Positions 31,798-47,122 of a stretch of DNA of 64,000 nt are shown here, piece after piece (position 1 is the stretch's first letter; each line of letters begins with the position of its first letter). The notes under the pieces are model-generated. The model did no database searches. It was not told where the DNA came from and saw only the letters and a program-made list of their open reading frames with translations. The position numbers and the translations under genes were made by a program. The stretch comes from Streptococcus devriesei DSM 19639 (GTDB lineage Bacteria; Bacillota; Bacilli; Lactobacillales; Streptococcaceae): positions 446,222 through 510,221 of the forward strand of contig NZ_KE384084.1 in the NCBI RefSeq assembly GCF_000423725.1, written 5' to 3'.

Positions 31798-34716
31798 TCA
31801 GCGTGCAAGTTTCTTTTTAATTTCTTCAGCAGCCAGCTTGCCGGATGTCAGAGCCCAAGCATTATTTGCTCCGGACGGTGAGTCTGTTCCCATAACACCG
31901 CCCACAACTTCGCCTGCTGCGTAAAGGCCGTTAATAACCTTGTCATTTTTATTGATGACTTCCAGTTTTGAATCAACAACAAGACCTCCCATGGTAGTTG
32001 CAAACCGCGGTTTTTGCTCTATCAGATAGTAAGGTCCGTCGCCAATAGGCTTTTGCAAAAACTTGGACGGTCTTCCAAAATCTTCATCCTTGCCTTGTTT
32101 GACAAATTGATTGTAGCGTTCAACTGTGTTAACCAAGGCATTTTTGTCCATACCAGCATGAACAGCCAAATCCTCTAAGCGATCTGCACGGAAGAAATAA
32201 GGCGTCGTTGAACCATTGTTTTCAACCCAGGTGTCAATATCACTGGCAGAAATGCCGCCTTCAGCTACTTCTTCTCGGAAAATTGAGAAATGTTCCTGAT
32301 CTAAGAGTAAATAAAGCATTTTGGATTCCTGCTGCATGAGAACATCAAGAATATCATGGTTGCTTGCACGCTCATTAATCACCCGGCGCCCGTTGGTGCT
32401 GACCAAAAGGCCATTTTCTTTAAGCACTGCAATATTGCCGCCTATAGTTGATTTCGCAGATCCCGGAGCAACTTCAATCCCATTTGGATAAATCTTCCCT
32501 TGATCCAGCATCCGCGTAGCTGCATCTACGCCCGGTGCCTGTGCCATTTGCAGTCCTTCACCCATGGAAGAGCTTGTACCGTAGAAAAGAACATTTTTTA
32601 GTCTCTCAGGAAGAAGATATTTGTTATTTCCATAACCGCCAGTCGTTAAAATAATGGCGCCGGCAGAAATCCGGTGAGTTTTCCCATTATCCTCAACGGC
32701 TTCGATGCCTGTTACATTGCCCTTATCATCTGTAAATAAGTGCTGCGCCTTTGTCTGGAGAAGAAGCTTAATAGCTGAATGCGCCATTTTTTTACGAACG
32801 GTTGCCGCAAAACCATGACCGCCATCTTCATAAGCCAGTTCCCTATCCTTACGATATTCGGCCAGAACATGCAGGCCTTCTTTCATATCGTACTGAACAC
32901 CAATATAATCATGCACCCAGTCTGTTGCTGAGCCGACATTTTCAGCTAAAAGAGTCAGTAATTCAGGAACATTGGCATTGTTGCCGTTTTTCATGAAATC
33001 TTCATACATTAAAGCTGTGGTATCATCTGTAACGCCTGCTTCTTTTTGCAAACGGGAACCCATGACAACCTGATTTCCGCCTGATACCGAAATAGCACCG
33101 CCAATAAAGCTCAATTTTTCAATTAAGGTAACAGATAAGCCTAACTCATCAGCTCTAAAAGCTGCTGCCAGTCCGGCTGCACCGCCGCCTACAACAACCA
33201 CATCAGTCTGTTCTTCACTGATTTCTGTTGATTTTTTAACAGTTGGTTTATGGCGATTTTTAAGAACATCCACCGCATCTTGACCGCTTGCCATCAAAGC
33301 TGCATCAGCGACGCCATCAATAACGCCTTGACTGGTAGCAGAAGCTCCTGATACAGCATCAACATTTAAGGTTTGAAACTCAATGATCTGCTGAGGCAAT
33401 TTTTCAAAGACCAAGTCTGAAAGTCCTTGCGATTCTCCGGAAGAATCAATTTTAATATCGGTAATTTTAGAATCGCTAAACGTTACAACCATCGGTAAGC
33501 TGCTATTGTGACCCTTAGCGATGACATTATAGTCACCCGGCTTAAATTCAAGCGATTTTCCCATTAATTTAATAAGCCGCTTTTGCTTTTTCATTTCTGC
33601 ATCGGAGTCTTTGACCAAATGGAACGTTTCATCCATAAAATGCCAAAGAGGTGTCGGGATAACAAGATTCTCTCTATCATGGATATCTGCAAAACTTTTA
33701 ACTTTTTTGCCCTCTTTGATAGCTCGGGCCCAATTGGGCTCTACCAGAAAGCCTTTTGCAACAGCTATCAGGTCGTAGCCAACTTCCAAAGCATTTTCAG
33801 CATCTTCTTTTTGAAGGATGGAACCAACTCCGATAATCGGAATTTCTGCCAGCCTGTCGGAACGCTGTGCTAAATACTTAGTGATCAGCATCTCCGGATC
33901 ATCTGATTGAACAATGGAATTGCGGGTGTAAGATCCCATAGAAAAATGGAAATAGTCTAAACCATATTCTGCCAAGGTATTCAGAAGATACATGGTATCG
34001 TCAAAACGAATTCCCGGTTCTTCCAGTTCTTCGGGTGAGAATCGATAGCCTAAAATAAACTTGTCAGCACCTTCTTCTTTGATCACTGCCTGGGCGGCCT
34101 TAACCACTTCAATTGGAAATTTAGCTCTTTTTTCAATCGTTCCGCCCCAAGCATCTTCACGACGGTTGGAGTGAGGAGAGAAAAATTGTTGAATGAGATA
34201 CGTATTAGCTCCGTGTAATTCAACCCCGTCAAATCCGGCCTTAATTGCCCGGCGTACACCCTCCGCAAAATTGTCAATCATATCTAAAATATCGCGATGG
34301 GACATTTCTGTCGGTACCGGCGCATTAGGTCTTAGGGCTGCTACTGCTGAAGCAGAAATAGGATTAGCACCTTCGTTCATTTCCGGAAAGCCCATTCGAC
34401 CGGCATGATAAATCTGAATGATGGCTTTTGACCCCTTCTCATGAATCGCCCGCGCGAGCCGAGACAGGCCTTCTATTTTGTCATCCTTATCAATTCCCAG
34501 AGCTCCAAAAAATCCGCGGCCCTTATTTTCAACAAAGGCTGATTCAACGATAACCGCACTGACCTCACCAGAGCGATTGGCATAGTAACGAATCAAGCCT
34601 TGAGTGATGCTGCCATCGAAATATGCTGATTGAGTTGTCATCGGCGCCACTAAAATTCTATTTTTCAGCCTTGCTCCCGAAGGCAGAACAACTTCTTCAA
34701 AAATCTTTTTTGTCAT
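31798..34716 (-). CDS. Three-domain flavin reductase: OYE domain + FMN_bind + fumarate-reductase-like FAD domain (candidate shikimate reductase)
   Basis: 972 residues with no signal peptide. Residues 1-370 form an Old-Yellow-Enzyme domain (ILVAPMTTQSA, IIQIYHAGRMG, GVELHGANTYLIQQFFSPHSNRRED, IIGVGSI), the NADH-oxidising part. At 390-480 is an FMN_bind domain with DAVSGASATS; the usual flavinylated Thr of DxxSGAT is Ser here. From 506 to the end is a FAD domain (DVVVVGGGAAGLAAAF, catalytic-Arg motif NGRRVINERASNHD). The fumarate-binding His of HTMGG is Thr (TTMGG, about 907) and the substrate Arg before GGN is missing (SPSGANN), so fumarate is unlikely. Start fixed by GGAGGT 7 nt before ATG 34716. 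The aroD/ydiB neighbours point to shikimate or a dehydro form as acceptor (inference). Confidence 0.88.
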   Translation of the reverse strand: MTKKIFEEVVLPSGARLKNRILVAPMTTQSAYFDGSITQGLIRYYANRSGEVSAVIVESAFVENKGRGFFGALGIDKDDKIEGLSRLARAIHEKGSKAIIQIYHAGRMGFPEMNEGANPISASAVAALRPNAPVPTEMSHRDILDMIDNFAEGVRRAIKAGFDGVELHGANTYLIQQFFSPHSNRREDAWGGTIEKRAKFPIEVVKAAQAVIKEEGADKFILGYRFSPEELEEPGIRFDDTMYLLNTLAEYGLDYFHFSMGSYTRNSIVQSDDPEMLITKYLAQRSDRLAEIPIIGVGSILQKEDAENALEVGYDLIAVAKGFLVEPNWARAIKEGKKVKSFADIHDRENLVIPTPLWHFMDETFHLVKDSDAEMKKQKRLIKLMGKSLEFKPGDYNVIAKGHNSSLPMVVTFSDSKITDIKIDSSGESQGLSDLVFEKLPQQIIEFQTLNVDAVSGASATSQGVIDGVADAALMASGQDAVDVLKNRHKPTVKKSTEISEEQTDVVVVGGGAAGLAAAFRADELGLSVTLIEKLSFIGGAISVSGGNQVVMGSRLQKEAGVTDDTTALMYEDFMKNGNNANVPELLTLLAENVGSATDWVHDYIGVQYDMKEGLHVLAEYRKDRELAYEDGGHGFAATVRKKMAHSAIKLLLQTKAQHLFTDDKGNVTGIEAVEDNGKTHRISAGAIILTTGGYGNNKYLLPERLKNVLFYGTSSSMGEGLQMAQAPGVDAATRMLDQGKIYPNGIEVAPGSAKSTIGGNIAVLKENGLLVSTNGRRVINERASNHDILDVLMQQESKMLYLLLDQEHFSIFREEVAEGGISASDIDTWVENNGSTTPYFFRADRLEDLAVHAGMDKNALVNTVERYNQFVKQGKDEDFGRPSKFLQKPIGDGPYYLIEQKPRFATTMGGLVVDSKLEVINKNDKVINGLYAAGEVVGGVMGTDSPSGANNAWALTSGKLAAEEIKKKLAR

Positions 34717-34795
34717 CCGTATAACCTCCAATAGATTTCAAAACATTATAAATACCTTATCTTTTATAAAATTTTTCTATCTATTTCTTTTGGAA

Positions 34796-34832: not shown

Positions 34833-35588
34833 TTAGTTCAATTTTAACGTTTCTAACATGCCGCGCAAAACAGCAACCGGCACTTGCCCGGGTGCAGAAG
34901 CTTTGGCTGCTGCTCCAAAGGTGGCAGCCGAACCAAACAGCTCTCCGCTGACCCGGCTGACCATCCCAAGAGCTCCCATAGACATGGTAATAAGAGGGCG
35001 CGTTGCCTTAGCTTTCATTTCTGAAGTTGCTTCCAGTAAGGTCAGCACATCAGAATTAGAATGAGGCATGACTGCTATTTTGCAAATATCGGCACGGCGC
35101 TCTTCCATCAAGCTTAAGCGTCTGACAATCTCTTGTTGACTTGGTGTCCCATCAAAATCATGGTTGCACATAATAACCTTAACATTTTGTCTGTGGGCCA
35201 AGTCAATGGTTTCTTGAACGTGAGTCTCAGGCATAAAGAGTTCAACATCTAACAAGTCTGCAGCACCACTTAGCAGGACTTCTTTATAAATGTCAAAATA
35301 CAAGTCATCAGAAATTTCCAGCTCACCGCCTTCTTTTTTACTTCTAAAAGTAACCAAAAGAGGCTTTTGGACAGCTGCTTTGACCTTATGCGATAAGCTG
35401 GCAACGTCTGCAGGAGACTGAGCCTGATCGTAAAAATCAACCCGCCATTCAATAATGTCACAGTCCAAATCTCTAAATTGTTCTGCAGTTGTGAGAATTT
35501 CAGATTCTGTTTTACCTACGATAGGAACAAGGATTTTTGGACGTCCTTCACCTAATGTAACATTTCCTACTGTAACTGTCTTTGTCAT
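34833..35588 (-). CDS. aroD: Type I 3-dehydroquinate dehydratase, second copy
   Basis: A 251-residue type I DHQase. It has the Schiff-base Lys in CKIAVMPH, the catalytic His in VIMCNHDFDGTPS, and the E/R residues of IIEWRVDFYD and LVTFRSKKEGG. It interconverts 3-dehydroquinate and 3-dehydroshikimate through an imine. The biosynthetic copy at 46445-47122 is 225 residues and clearly different. I start at ATG 35588 since the GTG at 35597 lies in the ribosome binding site. Its place between a transporter and a reductase, away from the biosynthetic block, suggests a catabolic or respiratory role. Confidence 0.93.
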   Translation of the reverse strand: MTKTVTVGNVTLGEGRPKILVPIVGKTESEILTTAEQFRDLDCDIIEWRVDFYDQAQSPADVASLSHKVKAAVQKPLLVTFRSKKEGGELEISDDLYFDIYKEVLLSGAADLLDVELFMPETHVQETIDLAHRQNVKVIMCNHDFDGTPSQQEIVRRLSLMEERRADICKIAVMPHSNSDVLTLLEATSEMKAKATRPLITMSMGALGMVSRVSGELFGSAATFGAAAKASAPGQVPVAVLRGMLETLKLN

Positions 35589-35600
35589 AGTTGTCACCTC

Positions 35601-36803
35601 TTATTTTGACTTATCAACTGTTTGATTATAGCGGATAAAGACGATAACCGCGATAATAAATCCAATGACAGCAAATACCGTATCCAATAGCATGATATTT
35701 CGAACACTGTTTGCTTCAATTGCAGCAGCCCAAATCGGTACTACGAAGGAAGCAATAGAGCCAAAGGTATAGAAAATACCTGTAATCGTGCCTTTTCCTG
35801 AAGGGAACATTTCTCCCATGACTGTCAGGCCCAGCTGCATAACACCGCCCGCTGCAAAGAAACCAACAGCCGCAGCACCGATTTGAACAACAATCGGTTC
35901 AGGGAAGATCCACATTGTTCCAATCGAAATCATAGACATAAACGTATAAAACAGCATCAGATTAACTGAACGCAGACGCAGACCAACAATTGCTGTAAAG
36001 GCCACACAAAGCAGTGAACCGGTCGAATAACTGGACAGGAGCAGTTTAGCAGCGGCTGCTGACATTCCGGCAACTTTTTCACCATAAACGGAAATGAATT
36101 GTGAAATCAGATAGAAAGTTGCTTGGGAAATGAAACCATAGATAATGAAAGCAACACCTTCCAACCAAATTTTAGGTTTTGATTTAAAGGTTACTGCTGA
36201 AACAAAAGCTTCTTCTGCTTCGCCTTTTTCGGCAGCTTCTTTAGCATCAGCATCAGGAAACGGCAATTTCAAAACCAAAAAGATATTCACGAAAAGAACT
36301 GCAGCTGCGATAAAGAAGGTCAGTCTCCAAAAGCCCATGCTAGAGGCAAGAATCAAAAGAAAAGGAAGAATAAACTGACCAATTTGAACTGCTGCCTTAA
36401 TCAAAACATTAGCTGTACCCGCATGCTCTGGAAAAGATTCCATCAAGGCCGGATAAGTTCCTGAGTCCAAAAAAGAATTAGCGATACCGGCTAAAACAGT
36501 CAAAAACATGGCAATACCGATATTAGGACTGAAAATCAAACCGAGGAAGTACAAAATATAAGTTGCAGCCCCTAAGATAACAAAGGGCTTGCGTCCGAAC
36601 ATATCGGATAATTTACCTGAAATCAAAATCGCAATTAAACGGCCGATACCAAGCATGGCAACAACACTCATGACCTCCTGAGCATTGGCTCCCCATTGCA
36701 GGGCAAGCTCATCTCTGTGCTGCGAAATAATGATAACACCAATACCATGAATAACATAGTTTAGATATAACGATAAGGCGGTTGGCAAATAACGATTTTT
36801 CAT
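35601..36803 (-). CDS. MFS transporter, candidate quinate/shikimate permease 1
   Basis: A 400-residue major facilitator with 12 predicted helices, a GxLSDMFGRKPF loop between helices 2 and 3, and a long central loop rich in K, E and A. It lies 12 bases upstream of the second aroD. Its paralog (37796-38998) has the same length and aligns along the whole N terminus (LYLNY, SQ, WGA, GxGRxxxLxxxG). The gene content suggests import of quinate or shikimate, or exchange of substrate for reduced product; this is inference. Confidence 0.85.
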   Translation of the reverse strand: MKNRYLPTALSLYLNYVIHGIGVIIISQHRDELALQWGANAQEVMSVVAMLGIGRLIAILISGKLSDMFGRKPFVILGAATYILYFLGLIFSPNIGIAMFLTVLAGIANSFLDSGTYPALMESFPEHAGTANVLIKAAVQIGQFILPFLLILASSMGFWRLTFFIAAAVLFVNIFLVLKLPFPDADAKEAAEKGEAEEAFVSAVTFKSKPKIWLEGVAFIIYGFISQATFYLISQFISVYGEKVAGMSAAAAKLLLSSYSTGSLLCVAFTAIVGLRLRSVNLMLFYTFMSMISIGTMWIFPEPIVVQIGAAAVGFFAAGGVMQLGLTVMGEMFPSGKGTITGIFYTFGSIASFVVPIWAAAIEANSVRNIMLLDTVFAVIGFIIAVIVFIRYNQTVDKSK

Positions 36804-36860: not shown

Positions 36861-37727
36861 TTAAAACAAAATGGATTTAATATAATCAACCGGCATGTCT
36901 TCCCCAGTGATTAGTTTGAATGCTTCTGCACCTTGATAGAGCATCATTCCAAGACCGTTATAAACTTTAGCAGCCCCATTTTCTTTAGCAAATTTCATGA
37001 GTTTTGTTTCCCTAGGTGCATACACCACATCAAAAATAACAAGGTCGGGACGGATAAGAGATGGATCATCAATCAGGCTGACATCTTCCTGCGGATGCAT
37101 ACCTGCGCTTGTGGCATCAATGTAGATATCACTTTCCGAGATAGATTTTTTAAATGCTGTTTGATCTTCTAAAGGTGTAACGGTTGCGACTGTGTCGGTG
37201 TTTTCATTGATTTTTTTAGCATTTTCAACTGCTGTTGCATAGTGATCGTCATCACGGTTAAAGATTCTAATTTCTTTAGCACCGTCTAAAGCCGCCTGAA
37301 TAGCAATCGCCGTTCCGGCACCGCCGGCACCGGCCAGTGTCACTACCTTATCTTTAATATCAAACCCTTCATCCTGTAAAGCACGCATACAGCCTGTACC
37401 ATCAGTCACATGACCTACCAAATGGCCGTTTTGATTCACAACTGTATTGACAGCACCAACTAATCTGGCAGCAGGCGAAAGTTCGTCTAATAAAGGAATA
37501 ATTTTTTGCTTATTAGGCATTGAAACATTAGAGCCTTTAATATCAAGTGCTCGAATACCTTTTACGGCATCTTCAAGCTGTTCATTGCCAACTTCAAAAG
37601 CTAGATAAGCATAATCCATCCCTTTTTTGGCAAATGATTCATTCCACATGGTTGGTGACATAGAGTGACGAATGGGTGTAGCAATTAAACTAACTAAAAG
37701 CGTATGACCTGTTAAACGTTCAGACAT
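36861..37727 (-). CDS. aroE: Quinate/shikimate dehydrogenase (YdiB-like), second AroE
   Basis: A 288-residue AroE-fold enzyme. N-terminal substrate site: [17 protein letters not shown] (Ser pair) and [10 protein letters not shown] (catalytic Lys). The nucleotide site is [33 protein letters not shown]. Biosynthetic NADPH enzymes have a basic NRTxxRA; here it is NRDDDHY, with three acidic residues, as in NAD-using YdiB-type enzymes. It would oxidise quinate or shikimate with NAD+, or run in reverse. The biosynthetic AroE is at 45586-46455. Confidence 0.9.
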
Positions 37728-37795: not shown

Positions 37796-38998
37796 CTAAC
37801 GTTTAAAAAGCTGCTGGTAACGCCTTTTAACAATAAACATTGCCAGAAAACCGATAACTGCTAAGATAAAATTATAAATAAAGGCTAAATAAACAGACTG
37901 CTCAACCATCAACCCTGTGATATAAGGTGTTGACATAACAGATAGAGCCGTTGAAAGTGAGTAAAAACTGGTAACAATTCCCTTATTCATGGGGAAGAAT
38001 TCCAACAGCAAGGCCAGCCCCAGCTGCCAAATACCTCCTGCCGCAAATAACCCAACGAAGGAACTGGCAAGAATGATAGAAAACAAGGAGGGCAGCCAAA
38101 TCATATACAATATTGAAAGACTCGTCAGACCTAGGCAAACTAAGATTAGGTTTGATATATTGACCTTCTTCTTGACAATAACGGAGGTAGCAAAGACAGA
38201 TACAAATGAACAGATGCTGTAAATACTGACAAAGAGTAAGCTGTCTGCTTTATTGATGCTTAAGACCCTCTCTGCAAATGTTGGTATCCAAAAGACAAAA
38301 ATATTAAATAATGAAACGGATACAAATGAGAAAATCATCAGGGCAAGACCTTCAATGTGCAGCTTAGCTTTTTTAGGACGAACCGCTGTTTTCTCGCTTA
38401 AAGTCTTTTTACTTTTAGGACGACTATTCTGCTTTTCAGGATAAGATAGCTGCATGAGCAAAATTAAATTTAAGAGCAGACCTATGTCGCAGATAAAAAA
38501 TACCCAGCCGAAGTAAATCTTATTGCGAAGTGTCCAGCGAACAACAATCGGCAGGACGAACTGTCCTGTTGAAATAAAGGCTTTATTCAAAACACTCAGG
38601 GAACCATTGTCACTTTCCGAAGGAAAGGACTCAACAACAATCGGATAGGTGCTCGTATCCAAGAAAGCGTTACCAACTCCGGCCAGCAAAGCAACTATAA
38701 AGGCAATAAAATAGTTATTGGTAAAAACCATGCCGACAAAGAAAAGCATATCTGCAGCAACACCGACCAGCACGGTTAGTTTTCGGCTGAAATAATCAGA
38801 AAACCATCCGGCTAAATTGAGCGTCAAAATCCTGCCAAGACCAATGGCACTGATAACCAGAGTCACTTGGCTGAGACTGGCACCCCACTGATTTTGAAAA
38901 ATGGTTAAATTTTGCGAAATAACAATCGAAGCAATCCCTTGAAAAAAGTAGTTTAAATACAGACTTACAATTAAAAAGATATAATTCTTCTTTTCCAG
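37796..38998 (-). CDS. MFS transporter, candidate quinate/shikimate permease 2 (non-ATG start)
   Basis: 400 residues if read from CTG 38998, which aligns exactly with the Met of the paralog (LEKKNYIFLIVSLYLNYFFQG versus MKNRYLPTALSLYLNY). The first in-frame GTG/ATG is only at 38866, which would remove the first membrane helix. A GGGGGTG precedes the CTG by about 5 nt. A nearby out-of-frame ATG (39016) would join this frame if the run of five G (39005-39009) were four. It is the first gene of the operon after the Rex/cre/LysR region. The central loop is rich in S and K. Confidence 0.75.
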   Translation of the reverse strand: MEKKNYIFLIVSLYLNYFFQGIASIVISQNLTIFQNQWGASLSQVTLVISAIGLGRILTLNLAGWFSDYFSRKLTVLVGVAADMLFFVGMVFTNNYFIAFIVALLAGVGNAFLDTSTYPIVVESFPSESDNGSLSVLNKAFISTGQFVLPIVVRWTLRNKIYFGWVFFICDIGLLLNLILLMQLSYPEKQNSRPKSKKTLSEKTAVRPKKAKLHIEGLALMIFSFVSVSLFNIFVFWIPTFAERVLSINKADSLLFVSIYSICSFVSVFATSVIVKKKVNISNLILVCLGLTSLSILYMIWLPSLFSIILASSFVGLFAAGGIWQLGLALLLEFFPMNKGIVTSFYSLSTALSVMSTPYITGLMVEQSVYLAFIYNFILAVIGFLAMFIVKRRYQQLFKR

Positions 38999-39019
38999 TT
39001 CAGCACCCCCATTTCATCA

Positions 39020-39037
39020 ATGTGAACCAATTCACAA
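39020..39037. promoter_or_regulatory. Candidate Rex operator
   Basis: ATGTGAACCAATTCACAA matches the Rex consensus TTGTGAA-N4-TTCACAA at 13 of 14 defined positions (only the first base differs). It lies in the predicted 5' UTR of the shikimate-reduction operon, about 20-35 bases after the expected transcription start, so bound Rex would block elongation when NADH is low. Confidence 0.75.
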
Positions 39038-39038
39038 T

Positions 39039-39052
39039 AAAAAACGCTTTCA
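39039..39052 (-). promoter_or_regulatory. Candidate cre site (CcpA)
   Basis: On the minus strand TGAAAGCGTTTTTT fits the core of the cre consensus (TGWAANCGNTNWCA) except the last two bases. It begins within a few bases of the expected transcription start, the usual place for catabolite repression. Confidence 0.5.
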
Positions 39053-39061
39053 TCTATTAAA

Positions 39062-39091
39062 AGTATACTGCTTTTTGATAAATTAATCCAA
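39062..39091 (-). promoter_or_regulatory. Promoter of the shikimate-reduction operon
   Basis: On the minus strand TTGGAT (39086-39091) and TATACT (39062-39067) with an 18-bp spacer. The -35 lies inside the LysR-type palindrome. Confidence 0.55.
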
Positions 39092-39174: not shown

Positions 39175-40080
39175 ATGAATATCCAGCAATTAAACTATTT
39201 TATCGCTTTAGCTGAAAACGAGCACATGACCAAAACGGCCCAAGACCTGAACATCTCCCAGCCCAGCTTAAGCTATACGATTTCGGAGCTTGAAAAAGAA
39301 CTTGGCGTTCCCTTATTTAAAAAAACGGGCAGAAATATCCGCTTGACCAAGTATGGGAACTACTATTATCAATATGTCAGGCAAGCCCTAAAGCTGCTTT
39401 CCCAAGCGAAAAAAACTATTAGCGATGATATCCATCCGTCCGTCGGAAAAATTGATTTTGGTTTTATATATACCATGGGAGCGGTCAATGCGCCTCAGGT
39501 TACCAAAACTTTTTTAGAAACCAATCCAGACGTCCGCTTTTCTTTTAAGCAAAATAATTCGAATAATCTCCTCCAAGATCTGCGTGATGAAATTCTTGAC
39601 GTCATCTTTGTATCTCATGTTGAAGGCTATGAGGATATCCATTTTGAACCACTGTTAACTGAAAAAATTATCGTCGCTGCACCGCTGCAGCATCCCATCA
39701 GTCAAAAAGACCTTATTTCTCTCGAAGAACTTGCTGAACATAACTTGGTCTATTACAATCATTCCAGCGGGTTAAGGTCCTATCTTGATCAGCTATTTCA
39801 GGAAGCGCACTTAACCATTTCCAGCAACATCGAAGTGGAAGACGACCAGACTGTATTGGGATTTGTATCCAGAGGCTTCGGACTTGCGATTATGCCGGAT
39901 ATTCCTACGATTAAAGCCTTCCCTGTTAAAACTCTCAAAATCAGCAATCCCATAAGCCCCAGAATTATTTATTTAGCAACCAGAAAGAATGCCTATCTTT
40001 CTCCCACGCTAAAAAAATTCAAAGCATTTTGTCTGTCTTACTTTAATTCAGATAAGGCCAAAAAAACCTCGAAACACTAA
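39175..40080 (+). CDS. LysR-family regulator of the shikimate-reduction cluster
   Basis: A 301-residue LTTR. Residues 1-60 are the HTH (MNIQQLNYFIALAENEHMTKTAQDLNISQPSLSYTISELEKELGVPLF); from about 90 on is a periplasmic-binding-like effector domain (IDFGFIYTMGAVNAPQ, LVYYNHSSGLRSYLDQLF, GFGLAIMPDIP). It is divergent from the MFS/aroE/aroD/reductase operon, with a nested palindrome between. The likely co-inducer is a pathway intermediate such as shikimate or quinate (inference). Confidence 0.9.
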   Translation: MNIQQLNYFIALAENEHMTKTAQDLNISQPSLSYTISELEKELGVPLFKKTGRNIRLTKYGNYYYQYVRQALKLLSQAKKTISDDIHPSVGKIDFGFIYTMGAVNAPQVTKTFLETNPDVRFSFKQNNSNNLLQDLRDEILDVIFVSHVEGYEDIHFEPLLTEKIIVAAPLQHPISQKDLISLEELAEHNLVYYNHSSGLRSYLDQLFQEAHLTISSNIEVEDDQTVLGFVSRGFGLAIMPDIPTIKAFPVKTLKISNPISPRIIYLATRKNAYLSPTLKKFKAFCLSYFNSDKAKKTSKH

Positions 40081-40135
40081 TGTTTCTGACAGCTATAGAG
40101 AAGCTTATCTGCCATTACAAATGTAAAACAGCATA

Positions 40136-40155
40136 AAAATTTTGGGAACTATATA
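40136..40155 (+). repeat. 20-bp repeat, left copy (AAAATTTTGGGAACTATATA)
   Basis: An identical direct copy lies at 40500-40519 and the exact inverted copy at 40539-40558. The left copy and the last inverted copy bracket the MazE-like gene as 20-bp terminal inverted repeats of a 423-bp unit. Confidence 0.75.
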
Positions 40156-40207
40156 CCATTTTACACCAGCTACAACATAGCGTAGGTTAGATAAGGAGGA
40201 ACAAGAG

Positions 40208-40483
40208 ATGAACACTCTAAAAACAGAGGAAAGACAGGTTAGAAAGTGGGGTAATGGATTAGGGCTTCATATCCCTAAAACAATCGCTGATAAGTTAGAC
40301 CTGTCTATCGGTGATAATGTAGTATTTGACATAACAGACCATGATAGCATTATGATTAAAGTAAAAAGACCTGAAAACGAGGTATTTATTCCTAAGTACA
40401 ATTTCAGCGATTTATTAAGCAGCAAAGACCAACAAGTCACTGAATTAGATTGGGGAACCCCTCAAGGGGAAGAAAGGATTTAA
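40208..40483 (+). CDS. MazE/AbrB-type antitoxin without a visible toxin
   Basis: A 91-residue protein. Residues 8-55 form a MazE/SpoVT-AbrB swapped-hairpin DNA-binding domain (QVRKWGNGLGLHIPKTIADKLDLSIGDNVVFDI). The tail is acidic (FSDLLSSKDQQVTELDWGTPQGEERI), as in antitoxins that wrap around MazF. GGAGG precedes ATG 40208. No mazF-like frame follows: the next features are an inverted repeat and a terminator. So it is an orphan, or it works on a toxin elsewhere. It lies inside a repeat-bounded unit. Confidence 0.85.
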   Translation: MNTLKTEERQVRKWGNGLGLHIPKTIADKLDLSIGDNVVFDITDHDSIMIKVKRPENEVFIPKYNFSDLLSSKDQQVTELDWGTPQGEERI

Positions 40484-40499
40484 CAACCTATGCCATTTA

Positions 40500-40558
40500 A
40501 AAATTTTGGGAACTATATATTGTGGTTGCGTAGACTGGTATATAGTTCCCAAAATTTT
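40500..40558. repeat. Long perfect inverted repeat after the MazE-like gene
   Basis: A 20-bp arm (40500-40519) and its exact complement (40539-40558) around a 19-nt loop. It would make a strong RNA hairpin at the end of the mazE-like transcript and repeats the sequence found upstream of the gene. Confidence 0.8.
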
Positions 40559-40565
40559 ATTAACC

Positions 40566-42159: not shown

Positions 42160-43266
42160 TTAATCTAAATAAACATTGTAGGTTGTATTTTGACTGATTA
42201 ATTTTTGAGCCCTGATAAGATCTGCTTCCGTTTTGAAAGAGATATGCAAAACACCGTTGATATCATCTCGGTTTTCTTCATTGATATGAATATTGACCAG
42301 AGAAGTTCCGCGCAGCAATTCCAGAATTTCCAAGATGACATTTTCTCTATCCGGAACATCCACATAGATATCGTAAAAGCTGTCAACGCCGCCTCTTTTA
42401 TGAATTTCCATCTCTTTTCGCTTTTGCCTGCCATTATCAAAAAAATGCCAAATAGCTTCTGCATCTCCTTGATCAATGAATTCAGCTATTTCATCAAGAC
42501 GTCCTTTAAAATCAGAAATTCTTTCCAAAACCGCCTCGGCATTTGACAAAAGAATACTTGTCCACATGCCGGGTTCGCTCTCAGCAATACGTGTCATATC
42601 CCGAAAACCGCCCGCAGCAAATCGATTCGTTAGCTGATGATTAACCGCATAATCACCCGCTTGCTCCATTAACCCTGAGGCCAGAATATGAGGAAAGTGG
42701 CTTATCTGACTGGTCACCTTATCATGCTCTTGGGCATCAACTTCAATAAAGCGCGCATTAAGCCCCGACAGCATTTCCTGCATTTCAAGAATGGTAGATG
42801 ATTTTGTTAAACTGCTGGGGCAGAAAATATAGTAGGCATTTTCAAAAAGATTGACATTTGCCGCAATAGCACCCGACTTGTGACTGCCGGCCATAGGATG
42901 GCTTCCTACAAACTGTACCGGTTTATGCTTAAGATATTTCTCAGCAGCTTTGACGATTTCAAACTTAGTGGAGCCTGCATCGGTAATAATGACGTTTTCT
43001 TTCAATTCCAAATTTGCCAGAATTTTGATGAAATCAATTGTCTGTTTGATGGGAACAGCTAAAATGATGACGTCAGCCAGAGGCGCAAATTCTTTGAAAT
43101 CCGCTGTTGCTTCTTCAACAATTCCGCGTTCCAAAGCAATGTTACGCGACTTGTCAGAGCGATTATAGCCGATAATTTTATAGTGAGGATGACCTCGTTT
43201 AATACCGAGAGCAAGTGAGCCGCCAATCAAGCCCAGTCCTGCAATATAAATTATTTTTTCTTCCAT
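42160..43266 (-). CDS. tyrA: Prephenate dehydrogenase
   Basis: A 368-residue enzyme for tyrosine synthesis. NAD site [18 protein letters not shown]; catalytic His in [31 protein letters not shown]. The C-terminal ACT domain ([22 protein letters not shown]) gives feedback control. I use ATG 43266 because GGAG lies 5 nt upstream; a GTG-type extension to 43323 is possible but unlikely. Between aroC and ylbF on the same strand. Confidence 0.95.
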
Positions 43267-43341
43267 CTTTTCTCCACTGTCATTCCGCTTGGCCGCATTT
43301 TCCATCAGCTTTTTGCTCCCCATAGAATTCCTGAGAATTTT

Positions 43342-44508
43342 TTAAAATTCTTTGACAAATTTCCGATGACGCTCTACAGCTTCTTGTAATTCTTCCATAT
43401 TGTCAGATGAGAATTTGTCCAACACTTCTGTGGCAAGCACTGTTGCCACAACGCTTTCCATGACTACTCCTGCCGCCGGAACAGCCGTAGGATCCGAACG
43501 TTCAACGCTGGCTTTATAGGGTTCATGCGTTTCAATATCAACACTCATTAAAGGTTTATAAAGCGTTGGGATAGGTTTCATGACACCGCGAACAACAATG
43601 GGCTGACCATTAGTCATACCGCCTTCAAAACCGCCCAGATTATTTGACTTGCGGGTGTAACCATCTTCCTTGGACCAGACAATCTCGTCCATAACGTCGC
43701 TTCCTTTGAGGTAGCCGTCTTTAAAGCCCAATCCAAACTCGACACCTTTAAAGGCATTGATCGAAACAACTCCTTGAGCAATCTTAGCATCGAGCTTACG
43801 ATCCCATTGTACATAAGAACCCAGACCTGCCGGCACGCCGCCGACAACAGTCTCAATGACACCGCCAATGGTGTTGCCTTCTTTTTTGATACGATCAATA
43901 TAATCCTTGATTTCCTGCTCACGCTCTTGATTGACAATTGACACTTCAGATTGGCGGGCACGTTTTTTAATCTCAGCAACTGTTAAATGATCCGGTACAT
44001 CAATCTCAATCCCGCCAAAGACGACTACATGGCTGGCAATGTCCATATCAAGTTCTTCCAAAAGCCGCTTAGCTACAGCACCAACCGCAACACGCATGGT
44101 TGTCTCACGCGCACTGGATCTCTCTAAGCTGTTGCGCAAATCAGAAAAGCGATATTTCATCCCGCCTACCAAGTCAGCATGACCCGGACGCGGCTTGGTG
44201 AGCTTACGAATGGATTTTTTCTTTTCCTCAATATCAGCAGCACTCATGACTTCGGTCCAATTCTTAAAATCACGATTTGTGACATTGAGTGTAATCGGAC
44301 TTCCCATGGTCAAACCGTGGCGCACACCGGAAGTGATTTCTACCTGATCAGATTCAATCTTCATGCGGCCGCCGCGGCCATACCCGCCTTGACGGCGCTT
44401 AAGCTCAGCATTAATGTATTCAGCTGTCAGGGGAAGACCCGCCGGCACCCCTTCAATAATAGCTGTCAGTCGAGGGCCGTGTGACTCTCCGGCTGTAAAA
44501 TATCTCAT
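43342..44508 (-). CDS. aroC: Chorismate synthase
   Basis: A 388-residue FMN-dependent enzyme converting EPSP to chorismate. Family signatures: [49 protein letters not shown] and [21 protein letters not shown]. The long Firmicute insert is present. It starts one base after the aroB stop, so it is translationally close-coupled. Confidence 0.97.
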
Positions 44509-44509
44509 C

Positions 44510-45577
44510 TCACTTCTCCAAATACTCTTTCATTTCTTGCAGACTGATCTGGTTGATAGCAGCCTGTCCTAATTGAGGAACAATCACTGTCTTAATCATC
44601 TGACCGCGGGCTTTTTTGTCGTGTTTCAACGCTTGGTACATCTTTTCGACATCCCATGGTTCATAGGCCGTCGGCAGACCGAATTTAGCACACATGGCTG
44701 CAATCTTTTCGGTTATACCCTCCGGCATCAATCCCTTTTTCTCGGCAACCCGAGACATCTGAACCATTCCGATTGCCACCGCTTCACCGTGCATCACTTT
44801 GCCATAACCAGCTGTTGCTTCAATGGCATGGCCGATAGTATGGCCAAAGTTCAAATAAAGACGAATGCCATTGTCCAGTTCGTCTTCAACGACAACCTTG
44901 CGTTTAACCTCGCAAGAACGGTAAATAATCATTTCAGAGTTATCCAAAATAGAAGCTGCAGAACCATCCAGAGCGTCCAGCTTATCCCAGAGCTCGGTAT
45001 CCGCAATTAAACCGTATTTAATAACCTCGCCCATTCCTTCAATCAGTTCACGCTGTCCAAGCGTCTTAAGCGTGTCCGGATCGATCAAAACGCCATCAGG
45101 CTGAGTAAAAGTTCCCACCATATTTTTAGCAAAAGGGGTGTTAACACCGGTTTTGCCGCCGATTGAAGAATCCACCTGTGCCGTCAGGCTGGTTGGAATC
45201 TGCAGGAAATGAATACCCCGCATGTATGTTGATGCAACAAAACCCGCCAGATCTCCGACAACACCGCCTCCCAGCGCAATGATCCCATCACTTCTGGTCA
45301 TGCCTTGCTTAACCAAAAATTCATAGGCCTTGTTAACAGTTGTCAAATTTTTACTGGCTTCACCTTCTAAGAAATCAAAAACGACTGTTTCAAAACCAGC
45401 ATCTTCAAGGCTGAGTTTAACTTTTTCAGCATAAAGGCTGCCCACACGGTTATCAGTAATAATAGCTATTTTTTGCTGCTGCCAGAGCCCTTTTACCCAC
45501 TGGCCTGCCTTAGCCAGACTGCCTTTTTCAATGATAATGTCATAAGGATTTTGAGGGAGATTAACGTTTAATTTCAT
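44510..45577 (-). CDS. aroB: 3-dehydroquinate synthase
   Basis: A 355-residue NAD- and metal-dependent enzyme making 3-dehydroquinate from DAHP. The motifs are [60 protein letters not shown] (metal His) and [10 protein letters not shown]. Part of the tight aroD-aroE-aroB-aroC cluster. Confidence 0.97.
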
Positions 45578-45585
45578 TGAGACAC

Positions 45586-46455
45586 CTATTTTGTATTGTA
45601 TTTTTCTTCCAGTGCCTGCCAGATTTCCTGACTCGGCATTTCCTTACCCGTCCAAAGTTCAAAGGCTTCAGCCGCCTGAAAAAGAAGCATGCCTAAACCG
45701 TTAATAGCTTTTAAACCGCGGCTGCGAACCAAATGTAAAAACGGCGTTTCAAAAGGCTGATAAATAACATCTGCCACCATCAGATCTTTAGGAAATTCAA
45801 AATCATCATTAATAATCATTGATTTGCCATCCATACCTACGCTTGTGGCATTGACAAACAAATCAGATGCTAAAACCTTCTCTTGAATCAGCTGCAAATC
45901 TTCAACAGGGAAAATTTCCAGAGGAACACCTGTTTTAGCTGACAGCTCCTTGGCTTTCTCTTTGGTTTCCTGCAAAAATTCTGTTTGGTTGAAAATGTTA
46001 ATTTTTGCAGCACCATTAATAGCAGCCTGTGCAATAATTGCTGTAGCAGCTCCGCCGCCGCCGAGAATCGTCATCGTTTTATCTTTAACGTCAAAATCAG
46101 CAAACACAGCTAAGCTTCTGAAAAAACCCAGACCGTCTGTATTGTAGCCCAACAGTCTGCCCTTTCGGTTGACAACAGTATTGACTGCACCGATTAAATC
46201 GGCTGCTTGAGTCACTTCATCAAGATAGGGAATAACAGCCTGTTTGTAAGGCATGGAAATGTTAATGCCAAACATATCATAACGTCTGACATTTTCTACA
46301 GTAGCCTCAAGATCAGACTCCGGAATATCCCAAGCGACGTAAACGCCATTGACACCAGTTTTGTCAAAGGCATAGTTCTGAATAAAAGGTGAAATCGAAT
46401 GTTTAATCGGTCTTGCAACAACTGCTGCTAAACGTGTATGACCATCAATCTGCAT
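45586..46455 (-). CDS. aroE: Shikimate dehydrogenase (biosynthetic copy)
   Basis: A 289-residue AroE. Substrate residues in [16 protein letters not shown] and the Lys of [10 protein letters not shown]; nucleotide loop [50 protein letters not shown]. It differs from the second copy in the cofactor-specificity loop (NQTE versus NRDDDHY). Its start overlaps the aroD 3' end by 11 bases, so translation is coupled. This is the anabolic enzyme by position. Confidence 0.95.
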
Positions 46456-47122
46456 CTAAAACCTCCTTAATCTTGCGCATATCCGTCAGTGCTATTTGTC
46501 CCGGAGCGCTTTCTTGCTCGAGACTGGCAAAAGTCCAGGAACTGCCTGTCAAATCAGCTGCTAAACGCGATATCTGTCCCAATTTAGACATGGACATGGT
46601 GACATATTCCTGCTCAGGATTCAGGGTCTTGAACCCCCTTGTATAATTCATCAAATCAAGAACATCCTGCTCATTTTGAGGCATAACAGCTATCTTGACC
46701 ACACGCGGTGCCAGTGCCGTTAACTCCGAAAATACTTCCATCAGATTTTCAGGGGTTTCCTCAAAATTATGGTAGGATAAGACCAGATTAGAAAAATCAT
46801 ACATGTCTTTTAAGATTTCACGATAAGAAAAATACTCAAAGTCAATATAATCCGGCTGATAGAGTGTTGCAATATCGCGAATAATCGCAAGATATTCTTC
46901 ACTGGTCAGCGAAATATGACCGCCTTCTTTTTCTGTACGCAGGGTGAAGATCACTTCATGCCCCGCAAATTTCTCAAAAATAGCCGGAGCTACTGTCAAA
47001 ATATCGTTCTTAGCCAAATAATCAGCCCGCCATTCGATAAGATCGGCGCTGCCAATTTTTGCTAAATCAAGCTGGTTAACCTCTTCAATGTTTCGAGGCA
47101 TAACAGAAACTACTATTTTCAT
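46445..47122 (-). CDS. aroD: 3-dehydroquinate dehydratase, type I (biosynthetic copy)
   Basis: A 225-residue type I DHQase with Schiff-base Lys in [14 protein letters not shown], His in [13 protein letters not shown], and the IEWRADYL and [10 protein letters not shown] segments. It overlaps aroE and follows rlmI by 6 bases. It is shorter than the second copy (225 versus 251 residues), as is usual for streptococcal biosynthetic AroD. Confidence 0.95.

Follow-up and report, generated by a model that had tools for sequence, protein, structure and literature searches.

The Rex regulon of streptococci, described for S. pneumoniae, S. mutans, S. suis and S. agalactiae, includes adhE, frdC/frdA, gapN, pncB and ldh. 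In the portions of these reports consulted, adhE is an experimental Rex target in all four species (PMC6018154, PMC3441419, PMC6154617, PMC8376106), frdC of S. mutans is bound by Rex and is 3.46-fold upregulated in a rex mutant (PMC3441419), and frdA of S. suis is also bound by Rex (PMC6154617). The locus described here resembles this regulon in the form of its predicted operator, its placement at the promoter, the reading helix of Rex and the presence of NADH-consuming target genes, but its target is a quinate/shikimate-type operon. The word "shikimate" does not occur in the main text of the streptococcal Rex papers examined; as far as these papers go, the operon would be a new member of the regulon, and an earlier prediction in RegPrecise or by Ravcheev et al. 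2012 is possible. A second related system is HcrAB of Lactiplantibacillus plantarum, which reduces hydroxycinnamates with an NADH-dependent flavoprotein reductase as an electron sink and is under LysR control, features that are also predicted for the present locus. The acceptor of HcrAB is a hydroxycinnamate and the consulted portions of its two sources do not mention Rex control, whereas the present locus combines aroD/aroE-like genes with a Rex-type site (PMC10295242, PMC13101492). The flavocytochrome c fumarate reductase and urocanate reductase structures 1qjd and 6t85 have a FAD_binding_2 domain in common with the reductase encoded here, which differs from them in its fusion to OYE and FMN_bind domains and in its replaced pocket residues.

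The window analysed is a 64-kb stretch of the Streptococcus devriesei DSM 19639 genome (2.12 Mb in 17 contigs). It contains an operon on the minus strand with the gene order MFS, aroE-like, MFS, aroD-like and three-domain reductase. The features of the operon and its promoter region are as follows:

31798 to 34731, minus strand: three-domain flavoprotein reductase, Oxidored_FMN (OYE), FMN_bind (flavinylation-type motif SGAS) and FAD_binding_2
34833 to 35597, minus strand: AroD-like type I 3-dehydroquinate dehydratase paralogue (TIGR01093, 257.6 bits; DHquinase_I)
35601 to 36803, minus strand: second MFS transporter (MFS_1)
36861 to 37727, minus strand: AroE-like shikimate/quinate dehydrogenase paralogue (NF001313, 451.8 bits, cut-off 431)
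37796 to 38998, minus strand: first MFS transporter and first gene of the operon (MFS_1), probable CTG start at 38998 to 38996
39004 to 39010, minus strand: putative Shine-Dalgarno-like GGGGGTG, read from the sequence
39020 to 39037, no strand assigned: predicted Rex operator, TTGTGAATTGGTTCACAT in the orientation of the operon (minus strand), core conserved in relatives
39038 to 39053, minus strand: cre-like box (CcpA), ATGAAAGCGTTTTTTA, one mismatch to WTGNAANCGNWNNCWW, directly abutting the operator
39062 to 39067, minus strand: -10 box TATACT, placed by eye (the script picked another box in the window)
39085 to 39090, minus strand: -35 box TGGATT, placed by eye, 17 bp from the -10 box
39175 to 40080, plus strand: divergent LysR-family regulator, with a presumed regulatory role

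The usual aroD, aroE, aroB, aroC and tyrA genes are located apart at 42160–47122 (aroB, aroC and tyrA named by eye), and the aroD- and aroE-like genes of the operon are thus second copies. The first MFS gene has no in-frame ATG, GTG or TTG before 38866, and its start was placed by aligning it to both the second MFS gene and locus L088. Within 38996–39013 a CTG behind GGGGGTG fits this start, the alternative being that the stretch of five G residues differs by one base, and a five-codon ORF (ATGAAATGGGGGTGCTGA) overlaps the same region. Between the LysR gene and an LDH-like gene, a MazE/AbrB-like ORF (40208–40483) is flanked by copies of AAAATTTTGGGAACTATATA in opposite orientation, and the whole unit (40130–40560) resembles a small mobile element.

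The palindrome at 39020–39037 reads ATGTGAACCAATTCACAA on the plus strand and is very probably an operator of Rex, the NADH/NAD+-sensing repressor. As originally predicted, it matches the Rex consensus TTGTGAANNNNTTCACAA at 13 of the 14 fixed positions, with an outermost base as the single mismatch, and pattern search identified it as the sole match with two or fewer mismatches in the window; at up to three mismatches, five matches were observed against 6.76 in shuffled sequence. The site also agrees with the TTCACAW half of the ROP consensus of S. agalactiae, given as TTGTWN6TTCACAWNNT in the consulted portion of the source, with a G for W at position 5 (PMC8376106). Pattern search of the whole 2.12 Mb genome found no perfect match to the Rex consensus and two matches with one mismatch, this site and one upstream of adhE. 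This count is near the chance expectation (1.1 matches with up to one mismatch per 2.12 Mb under a first-order Markov model of the window), so that the description "near-perfect" is accurate but the 13/14 match alone does not exceed chance on the scale of the genome.

The GTGA-N6-TCAC core is likewise unenriched, with 19 occurrences in the genome against 20.3 expected. Fourteen of these are within ORFs, one (genome 483463, window 37242) placed by coordinates only and another (C13:4193) overlapping the initial codons of an ORF that resembles a glycerol facilitator. The five intergenic cores are this site, the adhE site, one beside a 5S rRNA-like gene, one in a terminator-like hairpin and one behind an ABC-transporter gene. 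Among all 19, only the operon site and the adhE site follow a -10-like box ahead of a gene (boxes read by eye). At a single promoter, 0.0014 cores are expected per 150 bp under the Markov model of the window.

The -10 and -35 boxes place the site approximately 18–35 nt inside the transcript, with 24 nt between the -10 box and the site, which makes the originally proposed location in the 5' UTR plausible to the extent that boxes chosen by eye allow. Loci L104 and L105 have a -35 box and spacing identical to those of the window. The cre consensus is WTGNAANCGNWNNCWW, and the box at 39038–39053 is probably a CcpA site; cre-like boxes are present in 4/19 upstream regions, compared with 0.65 expected from shuffles. 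The cre-like box of the window and of S. massiliensis occupies the spot near the -10 box where other relatives have the Rex-type site. A further conserved element, approximately ATCTATTGATT ... ATATCTATTAGATTT, overlaps the -35 box 20–60 nt ahead of the sites in loci L089–L105, including relatives with no adjoining LysR gene.

A first search of 247 genomes of the genus found the reductase in 19, and a wider search of 284 genomes found it in 24. The 18 relatives of the first search and the window make up a comparison set of 19 operons, while the five genomes unique to the wider search served as a test set, examined once the pattern was already known. Bearers of the operon include S. massiliensis, S. 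ovis, S. orisasini, S. gallolyticus, Streptococcus sp. DD13, S. gallinaceus and S. varani. A perfect core is present at the operon promoter in 16/18 relatives (17/19 with the window), and the sites of L089 and L095 keep seven of the eight core bases. In all 18 relatives the motif precedes a unit holding the aroD-like, first MFS or aroE-like gene, the L095 site lying approximately 190 nt ahead of its aroE-like gene. The site starts 2–4 nt after the -10 box chosen by script in 14/19 operons, 7 nt after it in L095 and 20 nt after it in L088 (S. massiliensis); where the script failed, the distances by eye are 2 nt in L097, 3 nt in L098 and the 24 nt of the window. The four intact operons of the later test set all carry a perfect core 2–4 nt behind the -10 box (by eye). 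The fifth, L213 (G283), is decayed and has no core in the stretch from its aroE-like gene to what is left of the reductase gene; the reductase is in three pieces with a large gap, and the aroD-like and first MFS genes were not found. In total, the core is perfect in 21 of 23 intact operons, a count that does not represent independent events because the species are related.

This conservation bears on the reading of the inverted repeat as a leader RNA hairpin or a chance match. The leader can fold on the repeat, but the fold is no better than that of shuffled sequences (z -0.46; 50 of 200 shuffles give an equally good or better fold), the arms exhibit no compensatory change in the relatives, and in most of these only part of the site would be transcribed because it overlaps the expected +1. 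Approximately one 13/14 match is expected per genome by chance, which fails to explain 21/23 perfect cores at the same promoter. Both explanations are thus highly improbable.

The full Rex consensus is not kept in the orthologous operons, where relatives match 10–12 of the 14 positions. Most share the form NAGTGAA-N4-ATCACAW, with conserved deviations from the consensus at positions 2 and 12. A matrix built from 17 adhE sites, taken from plus-strand adhE genes only, gave the window site 16.1 bits, the top score in the window (runner-up 13.3), and the other operon sites 6.0–16.5 bits, against a training minimum of 18.9. Column scores from the alignment of the operon promoters are partly circular because the alignment is anchored on the site. 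In L104, L105, L211 and L212 the site is located on the transporter/aro unit and the reductase gene forms a separate unit without such a site, so that in these loci Rex may control uptake and the aro steps but not the reductase. The matches listed include no site with a core of at least seven bases close to the operon-like Gemella cluster (L050), nor one upstream of the enterococcal reductases linked to ApbE (L044, L052). Several of the streptococcal clusters also contain a unit with an esterase (Abhydrolase_3) and a CitMHS-type transporter, which carries more canonical Rex-like sites (TTGAGAATGATTTCACAA, TTGAGAATCTTTTCACAA and others). Sites with up to two mismatches precede this unit in 6/10 esterase-bearing loci (L092:14614, L098:14772, L093:4158, L096:4156, L094:15581 and L100:14647).

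A profile search identified rex above the family cut-off in this genome, where the lack of a rex gene would have counted against the original prediction, and in 19/19 operon-bearing genomes of the first set. The protein encoded here aligns over residues 4–212 with PDB entry 3keo, which we take to be S. agalactiae Rex (E 3.4e-112), and keeps the reading helix SATVRRDF, with Arg50 and Arg51, as well as Arg62 of the wing. The helix was retrieved in 15/19 genomes, the other four being missed by the search pattern. In the consulted portion of the report on the S. agalactiae Rex-DNA structure, Arg50 and Arg51 make base-specific major-groove contacts to the two G residues of TTGTGA, while Arg62 contacts the minor groove (PMC8376106). 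The G positions read by these two arginines are invariant in the operon sites except L089 and L095.

The adhE promoters provide a comparison with a known target. In this genome the one-mismatch site before adhE is followed 56 bp downstream by TGGTGAAGAATATCACAA. The adhE promoters of this genome (G000), G043 and G130 carry TGGTGAAGAATATCACAA, ACGTGAAGAAAATCACAA and AAGTGAAAAAAATCACAA, respectively, directly behind the -10 box, in the same form as the operon sites, including the deviation at positions 2 and 12. The other 16 of the 19 adhE promoters have TTG...CAA-type sites. Predicted Rex sites can be idle, since mutation of the predicted site R1 in the S. pneumoniae adhE promoter had no effect whereas mutation of R2 did, according to the consulted portion of that report (PMC6018154).

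An operator for a CRP/FNR-family protein of FlpS or ArcR type was considered because TGTGA-N6-TCACA fits the same core and because, in most relatives, positions 2 and 12 of the operon site differ from the Rex consensus. TGTGA-N6-TCACA is the consensus of this family, and the GTGA-N6-TCAC core is better conserved than the Rex flanks TTG/CAA. Moreover, at least one PF00027 protein is encoded in 17/19 genomes, one such gene adjoins adhE in this genome, and S. massiliensis (G217) encodes a FlpS-like protein with the helix RETVHQ beside arginine genes. However, G010 and G059 have no PF00027 match, yet the site is present in both (7/8 and perfect core, respectively), and the type of protein varies among genomes while the site is constant. 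The only PF00027 protein of this genome is YeiL-like (147.1 bits, cut-off 180; 30.9 bits with the CRP model), and its helix VSYRHLLRVIREF does not contain the R-E---R pattern with which CRP reads its site; a CRP/FNR protein with a matching reading helix was not found in all carriers. The position on +1 also suits a repressor and not an activator of the CRP type, for which sites are centred at -41.5 or -61.5. A CRP/FNR operator is accordingly unlikely. YeiL-like genes of the CRP family lie with an MFS gene beside adhE in both this genome (L159:6356–7036) and G043 (L161:5646–6326).

The operon sites also form a sub-motif of their own (NAGTGAANNNNATCACAW), as would be expected of sites for the divergent LysR or for a different, unnamed repressor, and LysR genes adjoin the site in the window, L093, L094, L096, L104 and L105. 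A LysR gene adjacent to the site was not found in the other loci, several of which have it at the opposite end of the cluster or lack it within the stretch; the sub-motif is also shared by the three adhE promoters, which renders this explanation still less probable than a CRP/FNR operator. Rex is favoured because the same deviating form occurs in three adhE promoters, because two site-bearing genomes have no cNMP-binding-domain protein and because the G residues contacted by Rex are invariant apart from L089 and L095. The predicted Rex operator is thus well supported by the presence of rex, the retention of the site, the form of the adhE sites and the repressor-type position, and it stands as a prediction from comparative sequence analysis.

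For residues 500–967 of the reductase, the best PDB matches are 1qjd and 6t85, the flavocytochrome c fumarate reductase and urocanate reductase entries. Flavocytochrome c3 fumarate reductase has a catalytic Arg and fumarate-binding His and Arg residues. Alignment of the reductase pocket exhibits HHTMGG replaced by ATTMGG, GxNRLGGN by TDSPSGANN, and the catalytic Arg by Asn or His. This altered pocket is present in 25/25 aligned streptococcal, Gemella and enterococcal sequences, unlike 3/3 from Vibrionaceae, and the family has the invariant acceptor pocket KPRFATTMGG / TDSPSGANNAWA. Fumarate reductase was rejected as the role of the protein since the pocket residues do not fit. An acrylate or cinnamate type, suggested by Vibrionaceae relatives with 55–57% identity, was also rejected; this identity is confined to the first ~540 residues and falls to 26–28% in the acceptor domain.

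The FMN_bind motif S-G-A-[ST] is conserved in 28/28 aligned reductases and ApbE is encoded in 19/19 genomes. By its FMN_bind motif and the accompanying ApbE gene, the reductase is predicted to be an ApbE-flavinylated protein. Enterococcal relatives of the reductase have 64–66% identity. Those of L044 and L052 (65–66%) share its acceptor pocket and are located directly behind ApbE (L044:8999–9937, identified by Pfam; L052:8969–9910, identified from position and length), and their stretches contain no aro cluster. Among the enterococcal stretches read, only that of L062 has aro genes next to the reductase.

The acceptor of the streptococcal reductase may be a hydroaromatic acid, based on gene context. 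Several clusters also encode an esterase, a CitMHS-type transporter, an SDR and a TIM-barrel protein, neighbours that would fit the use of quinate esters. The designation "shikimate-reduction operon" in the original prediction agrees with the aroD/aroE-like context, but the fumarate-type pocket residues are missing and the reductase is separate in four relatives, and we infer such a reaction from context only. A literature search on quinate and shikimate as electron acceptors found nothing fitting. Lactobacilli reduce quinate and shikimate to dihydroshikimate, which would be a physiological parallel. The electron-sink role proposed at the outset would fit both the OYE, FMN_bind and FAD_binding_2 architecture of the reductase and the binding of Rex at frdC and frdA, themselves genes of flavoprotein reductases, described in the consulted portions of PMC3441419 and PMC6154617.

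With ample NAD+, Rex would sit just downstream of the promoter and block transcription of the MFS, aroE-like, MFS, aroD-like and reductase genes, and upon build-up of NADH it would let go and free the promoter. CcpA probably acts at the cre-like box that separates promoter and operator, adding repression in response to preferred sugars, and the divergent LysR probably provides substrate-responsive control in the form of induction. The products of the operon would then import acids of the quinate/shikimate type, and electrons from NADH would pass through the flavoprotein reductase to a product containing a C=C bond. We tentatively propose, at somewhat less than even confidence, that streptococci of plant-eating or plant-exposed hosts possess a Rex-gated quinate/shikimate sink in which a reductase of new acceptor specificity reduces a hydroaromatic acid. 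The clustered esterase may release the quinate or shikimate for this sink from chlorogenate.

If the prediction is true, a plant-acid operon would join the streptococcal Rex regulon, and the site would provide regulatory evidence, independent of enzyme names, that the second aroD/aroE set contributes to redox balance and not to the synthesis of aromatic amino acids. It would also mark a conserved reductase family whose acceptor is to be sought among hydroaromatic acids. The predicted Rex site suggests that the bacterium turns this operon on to dispose of electrons.
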